Below are positions 1,255 to 56,975 of a stretch of 64,000 bases of DNA, one piece after another; the stretch's first letter is position 1; each line of letters starts with the position of its first letter. The notes under the pieces are model-generated. The model worked only from the letters and a program-made list of their open reading frames with translations. It was not told the origin of the DNA and did not search any database. Position numbers and translations under genes: made by a program. Origin of the DNA: Paraburkholderia sp. IMGN_8 (GTDB lineage Bacteria; Pseudomonadota; Gammaproteobacteria; Burkholderiales; Burkholderiaceae); assembly GCF_038050405.1 (NCBI RefSeq), contig NZ_CP150900.1, positions 2,232,001 through 2,296,000 on the forward strand, in the 5' to 3' direction.

Positions 1255-2928
1255 CTACTCGCCCGGGCTATACAGATCGAGCAGCTTGAGCGTCACGCCG
1301 TTGGTCCAGCCGAAGCCGTCCTGCAACGGATACTCGCCACCGCCTCCGCCGCCGGTTCCCGCGCCTTCGACCACGTACTTCTCGACCAGCTTCTTGTCGG
1401 ACGCATAGACGTCCTTGACGTCGGCGAGAAACCGCGTGCCGATCTGTTGCGCGAGCGCGTCCTGTCCATAACGCTTCAGACCTTCGACCGCAATCCAGTG
1501 CAGCGGCGCCCAGCCGTTCGGCGCGTCCCATTGCTGCGTCGTGTTGTAGGTGGTCGTCACGAGGCCGCCTGGCTGCAGAAGTGTCGATTGCACCTGCCTG
1601 GCCGTCTTCCGCGCACGTTCCGGCCATGCCACGCCCGCGAACAGCGGATACAGCATCGCCGCCGTCTTGTTGTCGCGTGGCTTCGCGAGCTGCCAGTCGT
1701 AGTCCCCGTAGTAGCCATTGGCATTCCACAGATAACGGTTGATGCCGACCGCCCGTTTTGCCGCGCGTTCGGCGAACTCGCCCACGCAGCGGAAATCGCG
1801 GGTTTCGCCACAGCCTCTCGCGATGGTCGTTTCAAGGTGGAACATCAGGCTGTTCAGATCGACCGGAATGATCGACGTGGTGCGGACCGTCGCGAGCGTC
1901 ATGTTGTCGCCGAACCAGCGTGAGCTGAAATCCCAACCGCTCTCCGCGGTCGCGCGCAGTTCACGGTAGACCTCGTTTGGCGAGCGGCCCGTGGCTTGCT
2001 GCGCGGTCTTCACGTCTTCCAGATACGACTCGTCACGCGGGGTGTCGAGTTCGTCCCAATAGCGGTTGAGCACCGTCCGGTCCGGCATCACCACGACGTT
2101 GCGCGTCGCGTTGCCCGGCTGGGTCGAGTCGGCGCCTTGCATCCAGTACGCGTACTCCTTGCGCAAAGCGGGGAGATATTTCTGATAGACCTTGCCGCCT
2201 TCGACTTTCGCCGCGAGCGTCACCATGTACGAGAAGAATGGCGGCTGCGAACGGTCCAGGTAATACGTGCGATTGCCGTTCGGGATGTGGCCGAATGTGT
2301 TGATCTCATACGCGAAGTTGTCGAGCATGTTGTCGACGAGATCTTCGCGGCCGGCTTCCTGGAGTCCCAGCATCGTGAACCAGGTGTCCCAGTAGTAGCC
2401 CTCGCGGAAGCGTCCACCCGGCACGACATACGGTTTCGGCAAGGGAATCAGTGAACTGTTCGCCGGCGTGCTCGTCGTGGTGCGCGTGAGCGCGGGCCAC
2501 AGCCAGTCGATGTGTTCGCGCAGCGTCTGATTCGGGGGTGGCGTGATGACCGGCTCGCTCGGCGGCGTGAAGTACTGGTTGACGAAGCTCGCCAGCGAAA
2601 AGCCTGGATTGTTCTTCTGCTGTTCGTACAACTGCACGATCGCGGCAGGGTCCGCATTCGGCGTTGCATCGACGAAGGTCTTCTGATCGGGATAGATCTG
2701 CGCGGTTTGCACGGCGACGAACAGGTCGCCGTACAGCACGCTCGGAGCAGGCGGAAGCGCTGCGCCGACTTGCGTGTCGGCGAAGCAAACGCTAGAGACA
2801 CTGGTGAGGAATACCAAACCTGAAACGGCCGCCCGATGAACGCTTCGATGTCGAAGCGCGCCGGCTGCGAGGCGTGGCGAGGTCAGGGCGATAGCAATGT
2901 TGCGGCGGACTTGCGACGACTCAATCAT
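1255..2928 (-). CDS. treA: Periplasmic alpha,alpha-trehalase (GH37)
   Basis: Hydrolyses trehalose to two glucose molecules, probably in the periplasm. The 557-residue product has both GH37 signatures: [15 protein letters not shown] near residue 175 and [10 protein letters not shown] near residue 465. The region SGWDFSSRW carries the likely catalytic acid Asp, and EKY followed by a glycine run and GEY, near the C-terminus, carries the catalytic Glu region. An export signal is visible around residues 30-50 (hydrophobic core ending SSVCFA), preceded by a long basic N-region. The start is supported by a strong AGGAGGAGAC ribosome-binding site directly upstream. It is transcribed alone, convergent with the PBP gene. 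Family assignment is secure. Confidence 0.95.
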
Positions 2929-3300
2929 GTCTCCTCCTGAGGAATGGACAACAGGATTGGTCTCCGGCGCGGCCTCTTATTCTTCTGACGATACTGAGGC
3001 GAAGGAAGGATCGCATAAAAACAGGCGCGCTTCAAACTTTCGTGCGCGGCGCGATGGACATGCCTGCCGCCGCACACGTCTGCCGCACAGCACAATTTCG
3101 GAACACAGCGTGCGCCGGCAGTGTGGAACGCATTGTTCCCAGCACGTCAGCTATTGCCAGACATTGCTGTTCAATCTCGTCACTCCATCCGACGAACATC
3201 TTCTCGCCGGTCAGGCGCTCTGCGCCTGCTCGTGCCTGGCCGCGCCTATTAGCGGCATCCGGCGCACGTTCGAGAAGTATGGCGCCCATGTCGCCGGCGA
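2929..3300. other. Upstream region of trehalase; no recognisable gene
   Basis: The first 100 bases should hold the trehalase promoter. A 99-codon frame on the minus strand (3032-3331) has protein-like stretches (e.g. GEKMFVGWSDEIEQQ) but no ribosome-binding site and no family I recognise, and it overlaps the recombinase remnant. I do not call it a gene. Confidence 0.4.
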
Positions 3301-45424: not shown

Positions 45425-48400
45425 TTACGGTTCCGCCAGCGTGTCGCGCTCGAAGCGGCCATAGCGCAGCGCAAGAGTCGGAAGGACGATCAGGTTCAGG
45501 ATCGTGGAGGTGGTCAGTCCGCCAAGAATGACGATCGCCATTGGCCCCTCGATCTCGTTGCCGGCCGCGCCGCTGGTCAGTGCGAGCGGCAGCAAGGCGA
45601 GGGCGGTCACGAGCGCCGTCATCAGGATCGGTATCAGTCGTTCCGACGCGCCGCGCACGGCCGCCTCCATGCCCCACGGCATTTCGTCGACATGCACCAG
45701 ATGCTCGTAGTGGCTGATCAGCATGATCGAGTTGCGCAGCGAAATGCCGAACAGGGTGATGAAACCGACCATGCCGCCCAGCGACAGGTCGCCGCCGCTC
45801 AGCAGCACGCTCAGCACCCCGCCCACCAGCGCGAACGGCAGATTCACCATCACCAGCACGACCCCGCGCCGGCTCTTCATCGCGAGGAACAGCAGCAATG
45901 CGATGCCGGCCACGGACATCGCCCCATAGGCGAGCAGGTCGCGCTGCGATTGTGTGCGCGCTTCGCTTTCGCCCGAGAACACCGCGTACGTGCCCTTGGG
46001 CATCACGATGTCTCGATTCACACGCGCCCGCGCTTCGCTCACGAAATCGCTCACCGCACGGCTGCCGAGATTGACCGAGACCGTCTGCATCCGGCGGCCG
46101 CCGTCGTGCGTGATCTGATACCGGCCGGAGACCTGGCCGATGCTCGCCAGTTCGCGCAATGGCACGGCCAGCCCATCCGGATTGCGCAGCATCAGCGCGC
46201 CGACGTCGCGCAGATTCCTGCGCGCATCGGGCGCGAGAACCACGGTGACGTCGTAGGGCCGGCTGCCTTCATAGGTTTGCGCAACCGTGCTCCCCTGCCA
46301 GGCGCTCTGGATTGCATCGAGCACGTCGACGGGCCGGAAGCCCCAGCGGCTCAACTGGTCGGGCTTCAGTCTGACGTCGAGCTCCGGGATGCCCGGCGGC
46401 GATTCCACCCGCACGCTCGCCGCGCCGCGGATCGTGCCGAGCAGCCGGGCGATGTCCTGCGCCTTGCGATCGATCACATCGAGGTTGTCGCCGAAGACGT
46501 TGACCGCAACGGGCGCCGTCACACCCGAAATGGTCTCGTCGATCCGTTCGACAAGAAACGTGTTGACCGAGGTCGTGAGGCCGGGAAAGCGGGCGAGCGC
46601 TTCCTGGATACTGCGCAGGATCGCGCTTTGCCGGGCCGCGCTCATCGGCGCGAGGTCGACCTCGAACTCGCTCAACTGCACGCCGACCGGATCGACGACC
46701 TCGTTCGCCCGGCCGGCGCGCTGCGCGACCAGCCGCACCCCCGCCACGTGCATCAGCGCCTGCGAAACCTGTGTGCCGATGCGCATCGATTCGGCGAGCG
46801 ATGTGCCGGGAGCCAGGCCCATGTGCACGATGTAGTGCCCCTCGCGCAGCTCGGGAATGAAGTTGCCGCGCAGAAACGGCAGCGCAGCCAGAGCCGCCAC
46901 GCACATCACCGCGACCACCACCATGACCGTCTTCACACGCTGCTCGACCATCTGCAACAACGCGGTGTAGCGCGCCTTCAGCCACGTCAGCAGGCGCGGC
47001 TCGTGAGCCGGCAGCGGCCCGCGTGCCAGCAGCTCGAGCGCCATCGCCGGCGTGAGCGTGAGGGCGACGCCGAGCGACGCCAGCACCGCGAGGATGTAGG
47101 CGACGCCCAGTGGCGCGAACAGCCTGCCGGCTATCCCCGAGAGCGTCAGCACCGGCAGGAAGATCAGCATCACGATGAAGGTTGCGAACACGACCGCACT
47201 GCGCACCTCGAGTGAGGCGCGTAGCACCACGCGGAACGCGGCCAATGGCGCGGGCCGGCTGCGGTTCTCGCGCAACCGCCGGTAGATGTTCTCGACGTCG
47301 ATGATCGCGTCGTCGACCACTTCGCCGAGCGCGATCGCGAGGCCGCCGAGCGTCATCGTGTTCAGGCTCACGCCGAACGACGTCAGCACGATGATCGCGA
47401 CCAGCAGCGAGAGCGGGATCGCGACGGCTGAAATGAGCGCGGTCCGGACATTGAGCAGGAACAGGAACAGCACCGCGATCACCAGCACCGCGCCGACCAG
47501 CAGCGCAGTGCGCAGGTGACCCACCGCAGCGTCGATGAAATTCGCCGGCCTGAACACATCGGCGTTCAGATCGACGCCTTGCTGCGTCAGTACCGGCTTG
47601 AGCGCGGCGAGCGTCTTCTCGATGTCCTTCGTGACGGCGAGCGTGTTGGTGCCGTACTGGCTTTCGAGGACCAGCATCACACCGGGCGTGCCCATGATCG
47701 ATGCGGCACCGACAGGAGGCGCGCTGCCCCAGGTGACGGTCGCGACGTCGCCGAGCCGCACGGCTGCACCATTGCTCCAGCGCAGGACCACACCGGCCAT
47801 GGCGTCGGGTGTCCGGATCTGGCCATCGGTATTGATGGCGATGCGCTGATTCGCGCTCTCGATGAAGCCCGCGCCGCGCACGCCGGTAGACGCCCGGGCC
47901 GCGGCGATCACGTCCTGGATCGACAGCCCGTAGCGCATCAGCCTGGCCGGATCGGCCTGAATCTGCAACTGCCGCGTGTCGCCGCCGAACACGATGGCGT
48001 CCGCGACGCCCGGCACGCTCAACAGTTGCGGCTTGACCGTCCACTGCGCGATGTCGTACAGGTCCATTAGCGAGCGTGTCTTCGAGGTCAGGCCAATGGT
48101 GCGCACCACGCTCGTGGTGGTGGTGAGCGGCAGCAGCCTCGGCGGCTGCACGCCCGCAGCCAGCGTCGCGGCCAACGCGTTCACGCGCTCGGACACGAGT
48201 TGCCGGACCTGCAGCAGGTTCGCATGACTGTCGAACACCACCGTGATCGCGGACAGGCCCTGCAGCGACTTCGAACGCATCGACTGCAAGCCGACCATGC
48301 CCGCAAGCGCGTTTTCGACGGGCTGGGTCACCAGCGTCTCGACCTGCTCGCTCGTGAGGCCCGGCGCCTCGGTTTGCACAATGCTCATCGGCGGAGCGAA

Positions 48401-48523
48401 CTCCGGAAACACATCGAGCTTCGCGCGCGTGAGGGTATAGAGGCCATAGCCGGCCAGCAGCACGGCCAGCGCGTAAATGACACCGCGAAAGCGCAGCGAG
48501 AATCGGATGATGGCGTTGAGCAT
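45425..48523 (-). CDS. RND heavy-metal-type efflux transporter (CzcA/CusA family)
   Basis: A 1032-residue inner-membrane proton antiporter. N-terminal RGVIYALAVLLAGYGLYTLTRAKLDVFPEFAPP is the standard HME-RND opening; NTMTLGGLAIALGEVVDDAIIDVENIYRRL (TM4) carries the proton-relay acids; PLRELASIGQVSGRYQITHDGGRR and the closing LNLIVLPTLALRYG fit the family. TM4 has the DD...E pattern, neither exactly CzcA (DFGxxxDG) nor CusA, so the ion cannot be named. It follows the adaptor gene by 66 bases. The neighbouring bufferin operon favours copper, as inference. Confidence 0.9.
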   Translation of the reverse strand: MLNAIIRFSLRFRGVIYALAVLLAGYGLYTLTRAKLDVFPEFAPPMSIVQTEAPGLTSEQVETLVTQPVENALAGMVGLQSMRSKSLQGLSAITVVFDSHANLLQVRQLVSERVNALAATLAAGVQPPRLLPLTTTTSVVRTIGLTSKTRSLMDLYDIAQWTVKPQLLSVPGVADAIVFGGDTRQLQIQADPARLMRYGLSIQDVIAAARASTGVRGAGFIESANQRIAINTDGQIRTPDAMAGVVLRWSNGAAVRLGDVATVTWGSAPPVGAASIMGTPGVMLVLESQYGTNTLAVTKDIEKTLAALKPVLTQQGVDLNADVFRPANFIDAAVGHLRTALLVGAVLVIAVLFLFLLNVRTALISAVAIPLSLLVAIIVLTSFGVSLNTMTLGGLAIALGEVVDDAIIDVENIYRRLRENRSRPAPLAAFRVVLRASLEVRSAVVFATFIVMLIFLPVLTLSGIAGRLFAPLGVAYILAVLASLGVALTLTPAMALELLARGPLPAHEPRLLTWLKARYTALLQMVEQRVKTVMVVVAVMCVAALAALPFLRGNFIPELREGHYIVHMGLAPGTSLAESMRIGTQVSQALMHVAGVRLVAQRAGRANEVVDPVGVQLSEFEVDLAPMSAARQSAILRSIQEALARFPGLTTSVNTFLVERIDETISGVTAPVAVNVFGDNLDVIDRKAQDIARLLGTIRGAASVRVESPPGIPELDVRLKPDQLSRWGFRPVDVLDAIQSAWQGSTVAQTYEGSRPYDVTVVLAPDARRNLRDVGALMLRNPDGLAVPLRELASIGQVSGRYQITHDGGRRMQTVSVNLGSRAVSDFVSEARARVNRDIVMPKGTYAVFSGESEARTQSQRDLLAYGAMSVAGIALLLFLAMKSRRGVVLVMVNLPFALVGGVLSVLLSGGDLSLGGMVGFITLFGISLRNSIMLISHYEHLVHVDEMPWGMEAAVRGASERLIPILMTALVTALALLPLALTSGAAGNEIEGPMAIVILGGLTTSTILNLIVLPTLALRYGRFERDTLAEP

Positions 48524-48589
48524 CGGCGGCCAGAAGTGTGCGGTGCGGGTGAAGTGGGCCAGCCCCAGGTAGGCCAGCCGACCTGCGGA

Positions 48590-49654
48590 TCAGTCGTCAC
48601 ATTCGGGCGGATCCTTGCAAGCCGTCGCGATGCCCTGTGGCCGCAGCTCCTGGGAGAGCAGCAACTGCGCGCCATGCAACACCACTTCATCGCCCGCGTG
48701 AAAACCATCGGTCACGACGAAGCCCTGATCGCTGGAAGAGGCGTCCGGCACGTAACGTCGCGTGAAGCGATCGGGGGCGGTACGCACATAGACCCATAGC
48801 TGTCCGCCGTACCAGATCACGGCAGGTTCGGGAATCACGAGCGCGGCCACGTTCCGGTTCGACGCCGGCACATGTGCGGCGGTGTGCGTTCCCACGGGCA
48901 ACGCGCGCCCGGCCGCGTAGAAATACGGGTTGCCCTGGACCGCCGGATCGCCTTGCGGCGAGGCAGAGAGTTTCCGTGCCGCGACCGGCTGGCCGTCCGG
49001 CGCGTCGACCTTGATGCGCTCGGGCGGGGCGCCGCTGTAGCCGGCGGGCAGCGTCACGCGCAATACGACCGCGCGGCCGGTGAGCAAGTGCTGGAACAGA
49101 TCCGAAGCCGGCGCCATCGCGGCGCTCGCGAGCGCATCGCCGAACTGCTGCCGCATCGTCGCATCCAGCCCGCTTCGCGCCGCTTCGGCCGACTGGAGCT
49201 TCGCCTGATCGCCCTGCATAGCCGCTCGCGCGTCCTGCAGGCTCTTCTGCGAGACGTTGCGATCGTCTTCGAACAGCACGCGGCTACGCTCGTATTGCGC
49301 GTGCGAATTGCCGGCCTGTGCGCGCAACGTGTCGTAGTCCGCCCGCGCGGCCGCGAGCCGGTTGCGCAGATCGAACAGCGGCTGCAGGTCGACGACCGTC
49401 GCGTATGCAGTGTTCTCGGGCTGGATGGCGGCGACCGCGAGCGGCGCAACATCGATATGGCTGGCGCGCTGCACGTCGGTGGCGACGACGACCACCGTTT
49501 CGCCGTTCACCGTCTGCACGGACGGCTGGGCGGCGGCCTGCGCCGGTGCGCCCGGCCTCGGTTGACTGGCAACGAGTGTCTGGTAGATGAACCAGCTGGC
49601 GCCGGCCGCCAGCAGCACGGAGACAACCGAAAGAATGACCAATGTGCGTTTCAT
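48590..49654 (-). CDS. Periplasmic adaptor (membrane fusion) subunit of the RND pump
   Basis: A 354-residue adaptor with an N-terminal anchor (VILSVVSVLLAAGASWFIYQT). A coiled-coil hairpin is visible at residues 90-170 (FDLRNRLAAARADYDTLRAQAGNSHAQYERSRVL). Barrel domains follow. It ends CKDPPECDD, two cysteines in an acidic tail that could bind metal. ATG overlaps the upstream tolC-type stop by four bases (ATGA). Shorter than usual HME adaptors (about 400-500) because the first lipoyl half is abbreviated. Confidence 0.85.
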   Translation of the reverse strand: MKRTLVILSVVSVLLAAGASWFIYQTLVASQPRPGAPAQAAAQPSVQTVNGETVVVVATDVQRASHIDVAPLAVAAIQPENTAYATVVDLQPLFDLRNRLAAARADYDTLRAQAGNSHAQYERSRVLFEDDRNVSQKSLQDARAAMQGDQAKLQSAEAARSGLDATMRQQFGDALASAAMAPASDLFQHLLTGRAVVLRVTLPAGYSGAPPERIKVDAPDGQPVAARKLSASPQGDPAVQGNPYFYAAGRALPVGTHTAAHVPASNRNVAALVIPEPAVIWYGGQLWVYVRTAPDRFTRRYVPDASSSDQGFVVTDGFHAGDEVVLHGAQLLLSQELRPQGIATACKDPPECDD

Positions 49655-51066
49655 CGGGATATCTCTTGTTGGGTGACAGTGGGGTTGGCTGTCTCCGGTG
49701 CGAGCGGCCGCTGCATCGCGTCTTCGAGTGCGCCGGCTGCCTGCTGGGCGCCGACCACGGCGTCCAGATGGGCGATCTCGCTCGCTTCGTAGTCCGCCCT
49801 GGCTTGGGTGAACGTCAAGCGGTCGCTGGTGCCGGCCGTGAAGCTGGCGGCCTGGCTGTCCAGTTGCTTTCGCGCGGTTGTCTGGCGCGCGACGGAGAGC
49901 TGCACGGCATCGAGGCTTGCCTGGTAATGGGCGAGTGCATGGTCGAGGTGGTTGAAAATCGTGTCCTGCAAGGCTGCGGTGCGCGCGGCCGCCTCCTTGC
50001 GTTTCGCTTCCGCCTGCGCAATGCCGCCCTGGTTCTGGTCGAAGACCGGCAGCGTGATGCCGGCCAGCCCGAACGCGATCTTGTGCGTGCCGGTGTCGTA
50101 CGTGTAGCCGGGGCCGAAATGGACGTCCGGATATTGCTTCGCGACCTCAAGCTGCAACGCCGATTCGGCGGCCGCGTACTCGGCGAGCGATGCAAGCAGA
50201 TCGGCGCGATGAAAAACCGCCTCGCGCTGCGCGTCAGCGGCGGGCGGCGCAGGTGGTGCGGTCACGAACGCCTCGTCATCAAACTGGATGTCCTCGAGCG
50301 CGGTGACGGGCACGCCGATCGCCGTCGCCAGTTGCGCGCGCGCGTCCTGCGCGGCACTGTGTGCGGCGGCGAGATCGGTCTGTGCCTGGGTGGCTGCGAG
50401 CACCGCCGCGTCGACGTCCGGCCCTGAGTTTTCGCCGACCGAACGGCGCTTCGTCACCATCGCGACGATCTGCTGCTGGGCGCCGGCCTTGCGCGCCAGG
50501 AACGCGGTGTGTTGCCGGGCGGCGTAGAGCGAAAGCAGCGCGTCGCGCACCTGGGCGCGCACCTTCCACGCCTCATTGCCGATGGCGAGGCGCGCGGCTT
50601 CCGACAGGTGTGACGCCTGGTCGATCCGATAGCCGCGCTTGTGCGCGGTCTCGATCGGAATGTCGAGCGCGGGACCGACGACCCATGGCGCACCGGGCCC
50701 CGGGTTCGGCGTCGCGTACTGGAACGGCAGTTGCAGCACCGGGTTCGGCAGCGCGCGCGCGACATCGATGCCCGCTTTGGCGGTGCCCCATTGCGCACGC
50801 GCGATATCGAGGACTGGGCTGTAGTAGTCAGCCGCGAGCGTGAGCATCCCGCGGTTCCAGCGCGGCAGGGGCCACGGAACGATATCGTGCCCGAGCTGCC
50901 GCGCGAGGTACGCGCGCAGTTCGGCGCTCGCAAGCGTGCGTTCCTCGAATCGTTGGGCGAGTTGCGTCGGCGCGATGGGTTGCGGGTGGTAAGTCGCGCA
51001 TCCCGTCAGCACCACCATCAGCATCAGGCAGGTGAGCAGCAACGAACGGCGCATAGCAACATCCAC
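49651..51066 (-). CDS. TolC-family outer-membrane efflux protein
   Basis: A 471-residue outer-membrane channel protein. The signal region ends LTGCATY near residue 24, a lipobox (L-T-G-C), so it is probably a lipoprotein as in NodT/OprM types. Long alpha-helical stretches (residues 170-240 and 370-450) form the periplasmic tunnel, and NPVLQLPFQYATPNPGPGAPWVVGPALDIPIETAHKR is the typical strand region. An internal ATG four codons in (51054) is an alternative start. First gene of the efflux operon; a 10-bp direct repeat lies 54-96 bases upstream. Confidence 0.87.
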   Translation of the reverse strand: MDVAMRRSLLLTCLMLMVVLTGCATYHPQPIAPTQLAQRFEERTLASAELRAYLARQLGHDIVPWPLPRWNRGMLTLAADYYSPVLDIARAQWGTAKAGIDVARALPNPVLQLPFQYATPNPGPGAPWVVGPALDIPIETAHKRGYRIDQASHLSEAARLAIGNEAWKVRAQVRDALLSLYAARQHTAFLARKAGAQQQIVAMVTKRRSVGENSGPDVDAAVLAATQAQTDLAAAHSAAQDARAQLATAIGVPVTALEDIQFDDEAFVTAPPAPPAADAQREAVFHRADLLASLAEYAAAESALQLEVAKQYPDVHFGPGYTYDTGTHKIAFGLAGITLPVFDQNQGGIAQAEAKRKEAAARTAALQDTIFNHLDHALAHYQASLDAVQLSVARQTTARKQLDSQAASFTAGTSDRLTFTQARADYEASEIAHLDAVVGAQQAAGALEDAMQRPLAPETANPTVTQQEISR

Positions 51067-51119
51067 GGTCTGTTGGCCATCTGTCGAGATGGCGACAGAC
51101 GTGGATGCTACGCAACGGC

Positions 51120-51162
51120 CTGTGAAGTTTTCGTCAAGTAGGTGTTAATTCGCTGTGAAGTT
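51120..51162 (-). promoter_or_regulatory. Direct repeat upstream of the efflux operon
   Basis: AACTTCACAG on the minus strand occurs at 51153-51162 and again at 51120-51129, 33 bases start to start (about three helical turns). It ends 54 bases before the TolC-type start. Direct repeats are the usual target of OmpR-family response regulators such as the one at 55833-56522. Regulator pairing is inferred. Confidence 0.45.
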
Positions 51163-51179
51163 CGTGCGTCTGTGGCGAA

Positions 51180-51644
51180 TTAACCGACCCAGCGCTTTCG
51201 TAGCCAATGGTCGACGGACCCGCTTCCGGCACCGCGGCATAAGAGCACCAGCAGCATGGCAGCCCACTGGATATGGGTGGGCCATGCCTGGGGATAGACA
51301 AATATCTCGATGACGCTTGTCATCCCCAGAAGTAGAAATGCAACGGGCCTGGTAGCCAGGCCGAGTATCAACAGGACAGGCGTCGACAACTCGATCGACA
51401 CGGCCATGTAAGCGGCAAGTTCCGGCGGCAGGAGCGGCAATCTGTATTCATCGCGGAACAGGGCAAGAGCGGCCTCCCAGTTCGCCAGTTTGGTCATCGC
51501 GGAGTTCCAGAAGACGGTCGCAACCGCAATTCGCAACGGGATGGCGAGCAGGGCGTAGGGCACGCGCTCGAGCCATCTGACAAGACGCATGATTTGACTG
51601 CTGTCGGCCGGCGACAGGGTGGCGGGTTGATGAGAGCGTGTCAT
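51180..51644 (-). CDS. DoxX-family membrane protein of the bufferin operon
   Basis: A 154-residue inner-membrane protein with four hydrophobic segments (PYALLAIPLRIAVATVFWNSAMTKL near 30; PPELAAYMAVSIELSTPVLLILGL near 75; AFLLLGMTSVIEIFV). This is the DoxX fold commonly found as the last gene of DUF2282-DUF692-DUF2063 operons. Start at ATG 51644 overlaps the DUF2063 stop (ATGA). Its task there is unproven; roles in thiol or quinone redox have been proposed for DoxX proteins. Confidence 0.85.
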   Translation of the reverse strand: MTRSHQPATLSPADSSQIMRLVRWLERVPYALLAIPLRIAVATVFWNSAMTKLANWEAALALFRDEYRLPLLPPELAAYMAVSIELSTPVLLILGLATRPVAFLLLGMTSVIEIFVYPQAWPTHIQWAAMLLVLLCRGAGSGSVDHWLRKRWVG

Positions 51645-52456
51645 GTGTGGGTCCTCCGTACTGCGCGTGCAACCGCCTTGGGAACCACGCTAACATCCGC
51701 AAGGCATCCGCGCGCCAGGTGCGTGGCGAGCACTGTGTACGCGTCGTCGCATGGCGCCTCTTCCAGCGCGGCGGATAACGGCTTTCCCGACAACAGCGCT
51801 GCGGTAAAGCGCCATTCGCACTCGCCCAGACGCACCACCTCGATGCCGCTCCGTGTTCGGTGAACGAGCAGCCAGACGGGTCCTTCCGCGAAATCGACCG
51901 CTGCCATGGCCCGCTCATCGCGCTCCAGTACCGCATGCCAGATGACATCAACCGGGAATTCACATCGCAGCAGTCGCACCGCCGGGTGAGACCGGAAGCA
52001 CAATTGCGCCGGCCCGGCTTCGCCCAGCGCCGTCAGACGCGCGATATCGAGCGGTGGGGCATCTGGCGCGTGGAGGGCGAGGTTGACGTGCCATTCCAGG
52101 CGTGCCACGTCGGCGAGATAAGGCACCGACGCCGCTTGCCGCAGCCGGTCCAGAAAATCTGGAAATCCTGCACCATACTCATCCAGCCACGCGCTTCGCG
52201 GTGGAGCCTCTGCAACGAATAACCCCGCAGCGCCCTCAAAAAACGCCGGACCGACCAGATGCTGCACCGCCGGGAAGGCCAGGCGAAGGGCCGTGACGAG
52301 CACGCTGGCGCAGGTATTCCGGTAAATGCCGAGCCGTGCGCCGGCGTCCAGCCCGTCGGCGATCACCCAGGCCGACGCGTCGCCATCAGTGCGGTCGAGC
52401 AGGCTTCGCTGCATCGCGCGCTGCAACTCAAGCAGCGCTGGCGTGTCGGTGTTCAT
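51641..52456 (-). CDS. bufC: DUF2063 protein, bufferin-maturation partner
   Basis: A 271-residue cytoplasmic protein. LLELQRAMQRSLLDRTD near residue 8 and GARLGIYRNTCASVLVTALRLAFPAVQHLVGPAFF near 40 are the DUF2063 hallmark lines; FLDRLRQAASVPYLADVARLEWHVNLALHA follows. It is the recognition partner of the DUF692 enzyme in bufferin-type and HvfC systems, binding the peptide substrate. It overlaps the end of the DUF692 gene by 29 bases and is followed by DoxX with ATGA overlap, so all four proteins come from one message. Confidence 0.88.
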   Translation of the reverse strand: MNTDTPALLELQRAMQRSLLDRTDGDASAWVIADGLDAGARLGIYRNTCASVLVTALRLAFPAVQHLVGPAFFEGAAGLFVAEAPPRSAWLDEYGAGFPDFLDRLRQAASVPYLADVARLEWHVNLALHAPDAPPLDIARLTALGEAGPAQLCFRSHPAVRLLRCEFPVDVIWHAVLERDERAMAAVDFAEGPVWLLVHRTRSGIEVVRLGECEWRFTAALLSGKPLSAALEEAPCDDAYTVLATHLARGCLADVSVVPKAVARAVRRTHT

Positions 52457-53318
52457 GGCGTTGCCTTTCCAGTTCGGTCTCGGCGAGGACGGCCTCTTCG
52501 ATCAGGGTTTCGATCGGCGGTACGTCGGTATCCCATTCGATCAGCGTCGGAACCGGCCCGAAGCGCTTGAGCGCCTCACGGTAGAGCGCCCAGACTTGCG
52601 GTACCACGCGTGAACCGTGGTCGTCGATGCGCAGCGTCTGTCCGTTATCGAGCGGCCGGACGCTGTGCCCGGCGAGATGGATTTCGCCGATCGAGGCCGG
52701 CGGCAAGGCATCGAGGTAGGTCATCGCGTTCCAGCCGTGATTGCAGGCGCTCACGTAGATGTTGTTGACGTCGCACAGGATGCCGCAACCGGTGCGCTGT
52801 GCGACCTGAGCGAGGAATTCCCATTCCGGAATCGTCGAATGCCTGAAGCGCAGGTAGGTCGATGGGTTCTCCACGAGAATGCGTCGGCGGAGGCGCGTTT
52901 GCAGCTCATCGACATGCCGGCAGACAACGCTCAACGCTTCTTCAGTCATCGGCAGCGGCAACAGGTCGGCCAGATACGTGCCGCCGGCTACGCTCCACGC
53001 CAGATGTTCGGAAACGAGCCCGGGTTCGACCCGCTCGACCACTCTGCTCACCCGGGCCAGATGCGCCGCGTCGAGCCCGTCGGCGCTGCCGAGGGACAAC
53101 CCTACGCCGTGCAGCGACACCGGATAGTCGCGGCGAATCGTGTCCAGGTATTGGGGCGCGCTGCCGCCGCCCATGTAGTTCTCGGTATGCACCTCGAACC
53201 AGGCGACCGCGGGTCGCGTGTCGAGCACGGGTTGGTGATGGCGAAAGCGCAGCCCGACACCGGCCTTCACCGGAATCGGGCTGGAGGCTTCCAGCGCGGG
53301 GAGCACGGTAACGCTCAT
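52428..53318 (-). CDS. bufB: DUF692 multinuclear iron oxidative enzyme (MNIO), bufferin-maturing
   Basis: A 296-residue TIM-barrel enzyme. Metal-binding lines are all present: FEVHTENYMGGG near 40, SLHGVGLSLGS near 70, VSEHLAWS near 100, ILVENPSTY near 145, CDVNNIYVSACNHG near 182, GEIHLAGHS near 213, IDDHGSRV near 233 and IEWDTDVPP near 260. MNIO enzymes use iron to convert cysteines in small peptides into copper-binding heterocycles (MbnB is the best known). The start is at ATG 53318; a 52-codon extension of the frame upstream overlaps bufA and was excluded. Thirteen bases after bufA. Confidence 0.92.
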   Translation of the reverse strand: MSVTVLPALEASSPIPVKAGVGLRFRHHQPVLDTRPAVAWFEVHTENYMGGGSAPQYLDTIRRDYPVSLHGVGLSLGSADGLDAAHLARVSRVVERVEPGLVSEHLAWSVAGGTYLADLLPLPMTEEALSVVCRHVDELQTRLRRRILVENPSTYLRFRHSTIPEWEFLAQVAQRTGCGILCDVNNIYVSACNHGWNAMTYLDALPPASIGEIHLAGHSVRPLDNGQTLRIDDHGSRVVPQVWALYREALKRFGPVPTLIEWDTDVPPIETLIEEAVLAETELERQRHEHRHASAA

Positions 53319-53331
53319 CAGGGTGGGCCGC

Positions 53332-53664
53332 TCAGCTTGCCTGCAACTTGCCGCCCTGAATCTTCGAGCAGTCACCCGCCGGCAGCAGCACGAAGGACTT
53401 CGTATCGCGCGCCTGGGTGGCCTGGCCTGCACACGAATGGGCGCCCTCGGCACAGTCGTTCTTCGCGACCGCATTGACGCCGTAGCATTTTTCCAGCTTG
53501 TTCTTTTGCATCCGCATCATGTTGTCCTGGACAACCTGCGGCATCTTGCTCATGTCCTTCATCTCCTGCGCCTGTCCTGGCAACGCCTGCATCGCAAGCG
53601 CCAGACCGATCGCTGCGGACAGGGTCGAAGCAGCCAGTAGCGGCTTACCGAGTTGCTTGCTCAT
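53332..53664 (-). CDS. bufA: Bufferin precursor peptide (DUF2282), four cysteines
   Basis: A 110-residue exported peptide. Signal peptide residues 1-33 (STLSAAIGLALAMQALPGQAQ). The mature part has the four cysteines of the family at 60, 71, 78 and 99, in EKCYGVNAVAKNDCAEGAHSC and PAGDCSKIQGG. Between signal and first cysteine is a Met-rich segment (residues 35-52 contain five Met), a possible extra copper site. In Caulobacter, homologous peptides are oxidatively modified by the MNIO partner before export and buffer copper. ATG 53664 follows CAGGAGGATGCAAA. The first gene of the operon, behind an ECF-type promoter. Confidence 0.92.
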   Translation of the reverse strand: MSKQLGKPLLAASTLSAAIGLALAMQALPGQAQEMKDMSKMPQVVQDNMMRMQKNKLEKCYGVNAVAKNDCAEGAHSCAGQATQARDTKSFVLLPAGDCSKIQGGKLQAS

Positions 53665-53713
53665 TTTGCATCCTCCTGAGGTTGGGGTCGCAGAATCGCA
53701 ACCTGCAGGAAGA

Positions 53714-53739
53714 TTCGCCGGACGACGGGCAAAGGTTAC
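53714..53739 (-). promoter_or_regulatory. ECF SigF-type promoter of the bufferin operon
   Basis: On the minus strand GTAACC (53739-53734), exactly 16 bases, then CGAA (53717-53714). This is a full match to the GTAACC-N16-CGAA element reported for Caulobacter SigF, the ECF factor that controls heavy-metal-responsive bufferin genes. It lies 50 bases upstream of the bufA ATG. No sigF-like gene is in this window. Confidence 0.65.
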
Positions 53740-53957
53740 GCCGCACGCAAAATTAATATTCACGCTGGCATCCGGCCAAACGCGCAGAATTTGTACATGT
53801 CCTCCAGAACGCACCGCCCTGGCCCGACGTTGAGTGTCGTACGGAATGCATCTCGATGCGGCCCAGGCTGATTACCCCCGAAACGTCGGGGCGGGAGAGT
53901 AACCATGCCAGGCTGCCGCCGGTAGCAGCTGGTGCATCGCTCAGGGAGACCTCGGAA

Positions 53958-54476
53958 ATGACGCCAACGACTCGTATCCTTCTCATGCTTCTGCTAGTCG
54001 GAATACTGGGCGCATGTCGCTCGGGTGTGAAGCTCGCCCCGAGCGCGAACACCACCGAGGCAAGTGGCCCGGTCGGCGCGCAAACCAGCCCCAACGCCGT
54101 CACCCAGATCGGGATCGATCCGCTGAACGACCCGAACAGCCCGCTCGCCAAACGCAGCGTCTATTTCGACTTCGATGACTACACCGTCAAGGATGAATAT
54201 CAACCGCTACTGCAACAGCATGCGCAATATCTGAAAAACCATCCGCAACGCCATGTGGTCATTCAGGGCAACACCGATGAACGTGGCACGAGCGAATACA
54301 ATCTGGCGCTGGGCCAAAGGCGCTCCGAGGCGGTTCGCCGCGTGCTGCTCCTGTTCGGTGTTCCCGATTCGCAGATCGAGGCGATCAGTTTCGGTAAAGA
54401 AAAGCCGGCGGCCACCGGGCATGACGAGGCATCCTGGGCAATAAATCGTCGTGCCGATCTCGTTTACCGCCAGTAG
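53958..54476 (+). CDS. pal: Pal-like OmpA-domain lipoprotein
   Basis: A 172-residue outer-membrane lipoprotein. The lipobox LLLVGILGAC is at residues 11-20. After a Ser/Thr/Pro-rich linker, RSVYFDFDDYTVKDEYQPLLQQHAQYL opens the OmpA C-terminal peptidoglycan-binding domain, and QGNTDERGTSEYNLALGQRRSEAVRRVLLLFGV carries the Asp and Arg residues that bind diaminopimelate. Unlike canonical pal it is not with tol genes, so it is likely a second copy. It is divergent from bufA and convergent with the histidine kinase gene. Start ATG 53958 follows GGAGACCTCGG. Confidence 0.9.
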   Translation: MTPTTRILLMLLLVGILGACRSGVKLAPSANTTEASGPVGAQTSPNAVTQIGIDPLNDPNSPLAKRSVYFDFDDYTVKDEYQPLLQQHAQYLKNHPQRHVVIQGNTDERGTSEYNLALGQRRSEAVRRVLLLFGVPDSQIEAISFGKEKPAATGHDEASWAINRRADLVYRQ

Positions 54477-54568: not shown

Positions 54569-55849
54569 TCAGTCGAGCGGCGGCAGGTGCAGGGACACGC
54601 GCGTTCCTTTCCCGGGCTCGCTATCGAGTCTGATCGACCAGCGGTAGCGATCGCAGATCTTCCTGACTATCGACAGACCGATGCCAAACCCGTGTCTGCC
54701 GGGCTCGGGCGGGTTAGCCTGGTATAACCGTTCGAACACCCGCGCCAGCGCATCCGGCGGGATGCCGCAGCCTGTGTCTTCGATCTGCAGCCAGCCGTCC
54801 GTATAGGTGAAACGGACGTGGCCGCTGTCCGTGTAGCGCACTGCGTTGCCGATCAGATTCGACAGCACGATGGCGAGCGCGGGCCGATTCGCCTCGATGC
54901 GCAGGCGACTGTCGACGTCGATTCTGGTCTCGATTCCCTTGCCTGTCAGCGTGACGGCAAACGGATCCAGCGCGTCTTCGATGGCGCCTGCGATGCGCAC
55001 AGGGCCGACATCGGCCGACGATTCTTCGCGCGCGAGCAGCAGCAGCGCGTTGACGAGATCTATCATCTTGTCCGCCGCGCGATCGATCTGCCGCAGCCGC
55101 GCCCGCGACTTCGCGCCCAGCGCCTCATCCTGGTCGAGGAGTTCGCAACTGGTCTTGATCGCTGTGAGCGGCGTGCGCAATTCGTGGCTGACATTGCCGG
55201 TGAAGTCCTTCTCGCGCTCAATCATCTGTGCCATCCGCCCGTGATAGTCATTGAACGCTTCGACCAGCTCCACGACTTCCACTTCGTCATACCTGGCGGC
55301 ATCGAGTGCGGACGATGCGCCGAGCCTGAGTGCCTTGACCTGGCGGGCGAGGCCGGCAACCTGCCGGACCAGCAGGCCGGACAGTCCGAACGCGAGCCAG
55401 AAGGCCAGTAGCGCAAAGATGCCGGTGCCGATCATCAACGCATTGATCACCTGCCGGAAACGCTGCTCATACGCACTGAAGTCGTAGATCCGATATAGCT
55501 TCGAATCGCCGAACAGCGCGACCGCGACGTGGATTTCACGGTCGTCCACGATGACTTCATGCGTGCCAACGCGCAGATCCTTGACCGACGCGGGCAGCGC
55601 GATGCTCACGTGGCCGCCGGCGGAGACATGGCCGCCGAGCCGCGGATCGAGCGGCGGCACGAGCGTCGGGTTCATCCGGTAGCTCTGCAGCAGGCTCGCC
55701 ATGTCGTCTTCGATCAGCGCGGCGATGAGCGACTCCTCCTGCGCTTCCGTCAGTGCCTTCACGCCGAGCGCCTGGCCTACGAGCAGCAGGATCGTCAGCG
55801 CGGAAAAGACCAGCGCGACCTTCAGGCGCAGGCTACGACGCGTCTGCAT
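54569..55849 (-). CDS. Two-component sensor histidine kinase
   Basis: A 426-residue membrane kinase starting at ATG 55849 ([10 protein letters not shown]). TM1 is at about 10-32, a periplasmic sensor loop about 33-145, and TM2 about 150-175. HAMP-like linker, then [19 protein letters not shown] with the phosphorylated His near 225, [10 protein letters not shown] (N box) near 330, DTGCGIP (G1) near 365 and GFGIGLSIV (G2) near 395. It overlaps the response regulator by 17 bases, so signal pair and stoichiometry are coupled. The sensor loop has no cysteine or His cluster typical of CusS, so its signal is unknown. Confidence 0.9.
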
Positions 55850-56522
55850 CGCTGTCCACGAACCGGTAGCCCAGACCGTGTACCGTCTCGATGAGATCGT
55901 CCTCACCATCGGCGGTCAGCGCACGCCGCAACGTGTAGACGTGCGCGCGCAGCGTATCGCTGTCCGGCAATTGCTCGCCCCAGATCTCGGCCTCGAGTTC
56001 GGCCCGGCCAAACACCCGATTCGGCGATTGCATCAGGATGCGCAGCAGTTGCAGGCACTTCGGCGGAAGCTTGACAGGCCGTCCGGCGCGCTCCACCGTG
56101 AGCGTCGCCAGATCGAAGTGCACGTCCACGCAACACAGGCTCGCTTGCGTCACCTGGCCCTTGTAGCGCTTGATCAGGGCATGGAGCCGTGCGCCGACTT
56201 CCTTGAGCGAGAACGGCTTGACCAGGTAGTCGTCCGCGCCGTGCACGAATCCCTCGAGTTTGTCGTCGAGCGTATCTTTCGCGGTTAGCATCAGCACCGG
56301 CGTGTCCCGACGTGCTTCTTCCCGCAGTTTGCGGCAGATGGCCAACCCATCCACGCCAGGCAGCGACAGGTCCAGCAGGATGGCATCCCAGTGCTGCGTC
56401 ACAGCGAGATGCAGGCCCATCGTGCCGTCTGACGTAACGTCGACCTCATAGCCGCCGTTTTCCAGATAGTCGTAGAGATTGGTCGCGATATCCGCGTCAT
56501 CTTCGATAATCAATACTTTCAT
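55833..56522 (-). CDS. OmpR-family response regulator
   Basis: A 229-residue regulator starting at ATG 56522 (MKVLIIEDDADIATNLYDYL). Acidic pocket EDD near 8, phospho-Asp in LLDLSLPGVDG near 51, and VKPFS lysine near 101 are intact. The winged-helix output domain (residues 130-225: RAGRPVKLPPKCLQLLRILMQSPNRVFGRAELEAEIWG ... RAHVYTLRRAL) binds DNA direct repeats. It precedes and overlaps its kinase. Possible target: the repeat at 51120-51162 before the efflux operon. Confidence 0.93.
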   Translation of the reverse strand: MKVLIIEDDADIATNLYDYLENGGYEVDVTSDGTMGLHLAVTQHWDAILLDLSLPGVDGLAICRKLREEARRDTPVLMLTAKDTLDDKLEGFVHGADDYLVKPFSLKEVGARLHALIKRYKGQVTQASLCCVDVHFDLATLTVERAGRPVKLPPKCLQLLRILMQSPNRVFGRAELEAEIWGEQLPDSDTLRAHVYTLRRALTADGEDDLIETVHGLGYRFVDSDADAS

Positions 56523-56975
56523 CGGGCGGTGTTCCGGGCGAATGGGATGGGGCAGTTTAGCAAGGCCACGATGTCCGGTGCGCAGGGAATGTCCTGCCGA
56601 ACCTCGCAACGGTGGTTATCCGCAGAACTACGGTTCCTGGTCCGGGCATCCTCCTGGGGAGGCTGGCCGTCGCCATTGCCACGTGAGCGCCCTTGGCCCA
56701 TTTTTTCAGATCCTGCACGATCAATTCGCGATCGATCTTGTCGCTCATGTTAAGGCCGTTGCGTACGAGCTTCGCGCCGGCCCAGTTCTTCAAGCGTCGT
56801 TCAATCGAAGACGAGACGATCGGGCATGGACGCCGGCGATTCTTTCTCGGCTCATCAGTGCGCCGCCACGTGAAAGTGCGTTCGCCAGGCCGTGCCCGTC
56901 GATCTCCAGCTCACAAACCCTGGCGAACCGGGGCGACGACGCGGCAAGGCCGTCGACGGTCCACCCGCATCGTGC
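56523..56975. other. Gap between the response regulator and pectate lyase
   Basis: 453 bases. A minus-strand frame 56557-56748 begins MSDKIDRELIVQDLKKWAKGAHVAMATAS and looks protein-like for 30 residues, then turns random; it has no ribosome-binding site. It may be the start of a decayed small gene. Otherwise nothing is seen. Confidence 0.35.

Follow-up and report, generated by a model that had tools for sequence, protein, structure and literature searches.

Buf1 bufferin clusters have been described around a core of the precursor BufA, an MNIO enzyme, a DUF2063 protein and a DoxX protein, and genes for a sigma factor and for NrsF are known to occur in them (PMC12452194). In Caulobacter crescentus, the bufferin operons are controlled by SigF and induced by copper, mutation of sigF renders cells sensitive to copper (PMC3511200, PMC8224329), and one SigF-controlled operon, CC2907-2905, lies remote from sigF (PMC3511200). 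In Sinorhizobium meliloti, overexpression of RpoE7 activates the homologous operon, and cadmium, chromate and peroxide produced no induction that could be detected (PMC6180224). Caulobacter and Sinorhizobium thus already provide examples of SigF-type control over these operons, and the promoter type is known in principle. Here we describe a bufferin operon in a 64,000-nucleotide stretch of Paraburkholderia sp. IMGN_8 (contig NZ_CP150900.1, positions 2,232,001 to 2,296,000; hereafter the window, whose own coordinates are used throughout). We consider it probable that this Buf1 (gig-type) operon stands on a SigF-type promoter of the extracytoplasmic function (ECF) kind, has lost the sigma/anti-sigma pair beside it and is now controlled in trans.

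The window shares with the SigF-NrsF regulon of C. crescentus its gene order, its GTAACC-N16-CGAA promoter and the remote position that one of the two Caulobacter operons also has (PMC3511200, PMC8224329). Unlike Caulobacter, where one sigF serves both operons and NrsF carries Cys131 and Cys181, this genome has two pairs, both with an NrsF lacking the second cysteine, and the remote state arose here by a visible deletion. The RpoE7-EcfR7 system of S. meliloti likewise combines an ECF16 factor, a DUF692/DUF2063 operon and a GTAAC...CGAA promoter in a divergent arrangement; however, the activation was seen on overexpression only, and the sigma gene is linked to the operon there, whereas the two are split here (PMC6180224). 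Within the same family, the gigPABT-rpoQ-rsqA region of Cupriavidus metallidurans contains a homologous operon (PMC10304878, PMC13192273, PMC7563307). In strain CH34 we located perfect GTAACC-N16-CGAA sites back to back, at 1315168(-) and 1315203(+), directed towards gigP and rpoQ.

Between 53664 and 51180 on the minus strand, the window carries a complete, ordinary Buf1 bufferin cluster in the order bufA-MNIO-DUF2063-DoxX. The first gene, bufA (53332-53664(-), 110 aa), encodes the DUF2282 (Buf1) bufferin precursor (PF10048, 72.0 bits, cut-off 22.4) and has an AGGAGG ribosome-binding site, identified by eye, at 53672-53677(-). It is followed by bufB (52428-53318(-), 296 aa) for the MNIO maturase of the DUF692 type (PF05114, MbnB_TglH_ChrH, 350.8 bits, cut-off 25), whose product also exceeds the cut-off of NCBIfam NF050167, 'MNIO family bufferin maturase' (380.7 bits, cut-off 310), and has 3bww as a relative in the PDB. 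The DUF2063 partner protein is encoded by bufC (51641-52456(-), 271 aa; PF09836, 79.8 bits, cut-off 27.2) and a DoxX-family membrane protein by the last gene (51180-51644(-), 154 aa; PF07681, 60.6 bits, cut-off 23.6); against NCBIfam HvfC and HvfX these two products scored 36.2 and 58.5 bits, under the cut-offs of 142 and 80. Working from the letters of this DNA, an earlier note had described four overlapping or closely spaced genes and a DUF2282 peptide with cysteines at 60, 71, 78 and 99; the coordinates and the residue count bear this out, and all four products lie above their Pfam cut-offs. The four BufA cysteines are invariant across 46 aligned relatives, and methionines occupy positions 1, 25, 35, 38, 41, 49, 50 and 52. 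The N-terminus, a candidate Sec signal peptide, is hydrophobic and, judged by eye in the alignment, ends near GQAQ. From the predicted structure of BufA (mean predicted local distance difference test score, pLDDT, 58.6) only the helix 43-54 was used. The closest named relative is Paraburkholderia lacunae, with an MNIO identity of 98%.

About 50 bp upstream of bufA lies a perfect GTAACC-N16-CGAA promoter, GTAACCTTTGCCCGTCGTCCGGCGAA, at 53739-53714(-). The -35 element GTAACC (53734-53739(-)) and the -10 element CGAA (53714-53717(-)) are spaced by exactly 16 bases, as the earlier note had stated, and the position of the latter is conserved among relatives; by analogy, transcription would start near 53707-53705. 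The motif occurs once in the window against 0.05 expected, a count that 5 of 100 shuffles reach. When the genome was scanned (9.11 Mb, two contigs) with the extended pattern GTAACY-TTT-N13-CGAA, picked after inspection of the same three loci that it retrieves, only three sites were found, namely the one in the window and those at two ECF-NrsF loci described below, with none in the reversed control.

An ECF and an NrsF gene lie divergently beside the bufferin operon in P. lacunae and relatives. P. lacunae is collinear with the window on both sides, with 96% identity over 6.4 kb and 89% over 2.0 kb, and between the collinear blocks it carries merP-merT-NrsF-ECF. In place of this segment, the window has a pal-type lipoprotein gene (53961-54476(+); TIGR02802, 145.9 bits, cut-off 125.35), preceded by a 93-bp 5' remnant of the ECF sigma gene (53797-53889(+)). 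The homology of this remnant with five relatives stops at 53887-53889; its first 18 codons are still recognisable (MSSRTHRPGPTLSVVRNA vs MSSRMHRPGPTLSVVRNA), and the frame is lost after them. Taken together, the two-sided synteny and the remnant show that the operon's own ECF-NrsF pair has been deleted here and the promoter kept. The deletion that split the sigma factor from its operon is new, and we found no description of the split locus, the NrsF subtype or the promoter survey presented below in the open-access literature. A search for the deletion in other genomes found the pal gene in almost all of them and, among the matches listed, only the genome under study spans the junction. An overlooked adjacent sigma factor was considered and rejected, as models built from the genome's own two pairs found no ECF or NrsF reading frame in the 64-kb window. 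As for the mer genes of P. lacunae, they adjoin its ECF-NrsF pair at 2435-3103(-) of the fetched locus (L155); MerP scored above its cut-off and the MerT-like protein, with 116.5 bits, under its cut-off of 150.

The earlier note had also suggested looking for a sigF-like ECF gene with a membrane anti-sigma factor, and two such pairs were found; the absence of a SigF-type factor from the genome, which the note had named as refuting its view, is thereby excluded. The two NrsF genes of the genome (C1:4316733 and C2:3121005; 96.4 and 105.9 bits, both above the cut-off) each adjoin an ECF gene, and neither pair is near the window operon. Each faces the same extended promoter: the pair on chromosome 1 lies divergently beside a complete second bufferin operon with a perfect promoter, and the pair on chromosome 2 faces a one-mismatch promoter and the beginning of a bufA, which then breaks off. 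The chromosome 2 ECF and NrsF proteins are 89% and 87% identical to the pair of Caballeronia mineralivorans, which retains its bufferin operon, and 72% and 74% identical to that of P. lacunae. They therefore form a lineage apart, in which the bufA belonging to the pair was truncated, and on the same identities we rejected a recent transposition of the window's sigma pair to chromosome 2. At this chromosome 2 locus (C2:3122357) the divergent promoter is kept and the bufferin operon lost, and the next gene encodes a large secreted beta-propeller-like protein.

We surveyed the promoter in 249 genomes of the family, DUF2282 being present in 77 and NrsF in 70; these genomes are related and the counts are accordingly not independent. 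We examined 108 match regions from the other 76 genomes together with the three own loci, removed eleven duplicate loci before counting and left out as a duplicate the 77th genome (G215, positive for NrsF and motif). A motif was counted if its spacer was 15 or 16 and it lay at most 350 bp upstream of the DUF2282 domain. Perfect motifs were present at 44 of 113 distinct DUF2282 loci, compared with a mean of 0.14 and a maximum of 10 for 300 permuted motifs, and the distance from promoter to DUF2282 domain is fixed among relatives. Among the 76 DUF2282 genomes, 38 of the 44 with NrsF had a perfect motif, versus none of the 32 without. The split recurs within genera: four genomes with both and seven with neither in g25, three and four in g3, and one and 14 in g24 (Pfam NrsF positions were used here, and for the motif-less loci counted below, instead of own-sequence models). 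Addition of 80 further named loci through the MNIO protein gave 182 distinct loci with 85 perfect motifs (81 with spacer 16 and four with spacer 15); where a related ECF gene lies within 2.6 kb, the motif was perfect at 60 of 64 loci. The class-1 ECF and NrsF models (classes are defined below) derive from just two sequences, both from this genome, and class-2 linkage is therefore underestimated where they were used. Altogether, the survey ties this promoter to NrsF in Burkholderiaceae, and it is among the new parts of this work.

With the operon's own pair deleted and the remaining pairs not adjacent, control would have to be exerted in trans, likely by one or both of the remaining ECF factors, which is the simplest reading of the sequences. 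The earlier note had placed the operon under an alternative sigma factor; the SigF-type promoter and the ECF-NrsF pairs in the genome agree with this, while the deletion of the pair beside the operon, and with it control in trans, had escaped it. We propose that periplasmic metal or thiol stress would inactivate NrsF, which would free the ECF factor(s) and turn the remote operon on. The precursor would be exported by Sec and, if it behaves as characterised bufferins do, the MNIO and DUF2063 proteins would convert the central Cys 71 and 78 to thiooxazoles, the outer Cys 60 and 99 would form a disulphide, and the product would chelate copper in the periplasm; both the cysteine modification of BufA and copper as its ligand are carried over from these relatives. 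The conserved Met-rich stretch may supply added soft ligands.

Several observations weigh against control in trans by an ECF factor. Taken alone, the motif is no more frequent in the genome than background, with 15 perfect sites versus 14 in the reversed control. Moreover, 27 of the 68 motif-less DUF2282 loci sit in NrsF-positive genomes, and in 6 of the 44 NrsF-positive genomes none of the DUF2282 genes has a perfect motif, so that NrsF does not imply this promoter. In C. metallidurans, finally, later work reported no evidence for RpoQ control of gig, the deletion of rpoQ raising gig expression (PMC10304878), and RpoQ has been called not essential for gig (PMC13192273). Since one paper had already asserted RpoQ control of the gig-rpoQ-rsqA region (PMC7563307), before the dispute, the novelty of such control 'here too', as the earlier note put it, is smaller than its wording suggests. 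When the motif string was searched together with sigma factor and metallidurans in the open-access literature, only the Caulobacter paper surfaced. RpoQ/SigF-type control of gig/bufferin operons in Burkholderiaceae is thus disputed in print, and the tracking of NrsF by the promoter over 76 genomes, together with the sites facing gigP and rpoQ, makes the dispute directly testable. In this context, the window represents a natural experiment, in which the local sigma factor was deleted, the promoter of a stress-peptide operon is still perfect and paralogous pairs are left to take over.

The perfect promoters can be divided into class 1, with TT after the -35 element as in the window (53 loci), and class 2, comprising the rest (32 loci). 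Over the 28 residues that precede the first cysteine, and with start codons chosen by rule, class-1 precursors have a mean of 4.55 methionines, class-2 precursors 0.50 and those of motif-less loci 0.49; three or more are found in 50 of 53 class-1 versus 2 of 32 class-2 precursors. The Met-rich stretch (residues 35-52) to which the earlier note drew attention is therefore real, is conserved in the class-1 lineage and marks it. Conservation is highest in DNMxRM, whose Met49 and Met52 are present in at least 90% of 46 sequences. This link between promoter and peptide is not circular, because the classes were defined on the promoter and the methionines counted on the peptide, although the sequences are still related. 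The traits can separate, as three loci (L176, L182 and L199) combine a class-1 promoter and a Met-rich peptide with a class-2 NrsF. Class-1 ECF genes do not have such a promoter themselves, none of 47 divergent loci showing a site at one mismatch or fewer. CH34 belongs to the other class: its RsqA has Cys130 and Cys180, few methionines precede the first cysteine of its peptide and, unlike class-1 ECF genes, its rpoQ has its own motif.

The cysteines of NrsF also distinguish the two classes. We anchored their numbering on C. metallidurans RsqA, which is among the sequences aligned by Kohler et al. when defining the two NrsF cysteines. All 48 class-1 NrsF proteins, both own ones included, have the first canonical cysteine (Caulobacter C131, here 130), none of the 48 has the equivalent of Caulobacter C181, and all 48 have another cysteine at position 110 (P. 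lacunae numbering), an invariance confirmed on 33 sequences. In class 2, by contrast, the C180 equivalent occurs in 29 of 29, the C130 equivalent in 17 of 29 and Cys110 in 0 of 29. Lacking the second canonical cysteine and carrying Cys110, the class-1 protein is therefore a variant and not canonical. Only helix limits were used from the NrsF model (mean pLDDT 66.4, predicted template modelling score 0.57, the other four models being much worse), in which helices 3 and 4 are joined by a loop with residue 110 at one end and residue 130 at the other, and residue 180 follows directly on helix 5; both ends of this loop would be periplasmic.

The lineage that combines a Met-rich peptide, the GTAACCTTT promoter and an NrsF without the second canonical cysteine is new, and the promoter classes, the Met-rich subclass and the NrsF subtypes have no counterpart in the accessible portion of the Buf1 description (PMC12452194). 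We tentatively suggest, as a possibility still short of an even chance, that this bufferin lineage of Burkholderiaceae and some other Proteobacteria joins a Met-rich precursor (DNMxRM before the first cysteine) and the GTAACC-TTT promoter to a rewired anti-sigma sensor, in which the canonical Cys130/Cys180 is replaced by Cys110 and Cys130 on either side of a single predicted periplasmic loop, and that the lineage may thereby sense and bind other soft metals; reciprocal losses on two replicons here would have converted one such self-contained cassette into a trans-regulated operon and a sigma factor without its own operon. If functional, the rewired cysteine pair would provide a comparison for metal sensing by a poorly understood anti-sigma family.

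The departure of these cysteines from the canonical pair also bears on the metal concerned. The lineage may mainly handle or sense another soft metal (mercury, gold or silver) and not copper, and a merT-like gene was indeed present at 12 of 53 class-1, 0 of 32 class-2 and 1 of 96 motif-less loci (with flanks that differ, 3.5 or 5 kb). However, the remaining 41 of 53 class-1 loci show no merT and the Buf1 systems that have been characterised are copper-responsive (PMC8224329, PMC12452194); we therefore hold a metal other than copper to be unlikely.

Another regulator could act under metal stress and leave the ECF site a minor part, as the reported dispensability of RpoQ for gig in C. metallidurans might suggest; the histidine kinase and response regulator encoded next door, or a different sigma factor, would be examples. 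The motif nonetheless follows NrsF from genome to genome and no sigma-70-like site was detected in 50900-54100, and we regard such a regulator as rather improbable. The promoter could also be a relic, a possibility that counts against ECF control of an operon known here from its sequence: after the loss of the sigma factor, the operon would be silent or read through from elsewhere. The neighbouring pair is indeed deleted, and the truncated bufA on chromosome 2 illustrates the decay of such half-loci. On the other hand, none of the four reading frames is interrupted and the promoter is perfect, though the adjoining ECF remnant is already frameless, and two paralogous ECF factors persist; a relic thus has a poor chance of being correct. 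Finally, a chance match can be ruled out almost entirely despite the background-level count, since the scan elsewhere that the earlier note had advised says little by itself, and the motif gains its significance from its position upstream of bufA and its conservation at that same location in dozens of divergent loci versus 0.14 expected.

The ECF-controlled operon that we propose lies in a metal-handling neighbourhood, between an RND efflux set and a two-component system. The former is CusA/CzcA-like (45425-51066) and scored 677.9 bits, just under the cut-off of 701.45; the latter consists of a histidine kinase and a response regulator at 54569-56609. A complete NrsF-sigma-bufferin cassette is present on the Paraburkholderia phenoliruptrix plasmid NC_018696.1 (124910-129073), typed as conjugative. 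Relatives of the MNIO protein occur in 352 plasmid records and, together with this cassette, they indicate that such cassettes can travel.

The genome contains a third DUF2282 gene (C2:4147473; L016:4662-5213(-)), with neither motif nor MNIO gene within the fetched stretch. After its DUF2282 domain, the reading frame runs on into the C-terminal part of a superoxide dismutase (Sod_Fe_C, 31-102 of 102, 58.1 bits), and a deletion may have created this fusion. The gene after it is presumably chrB.

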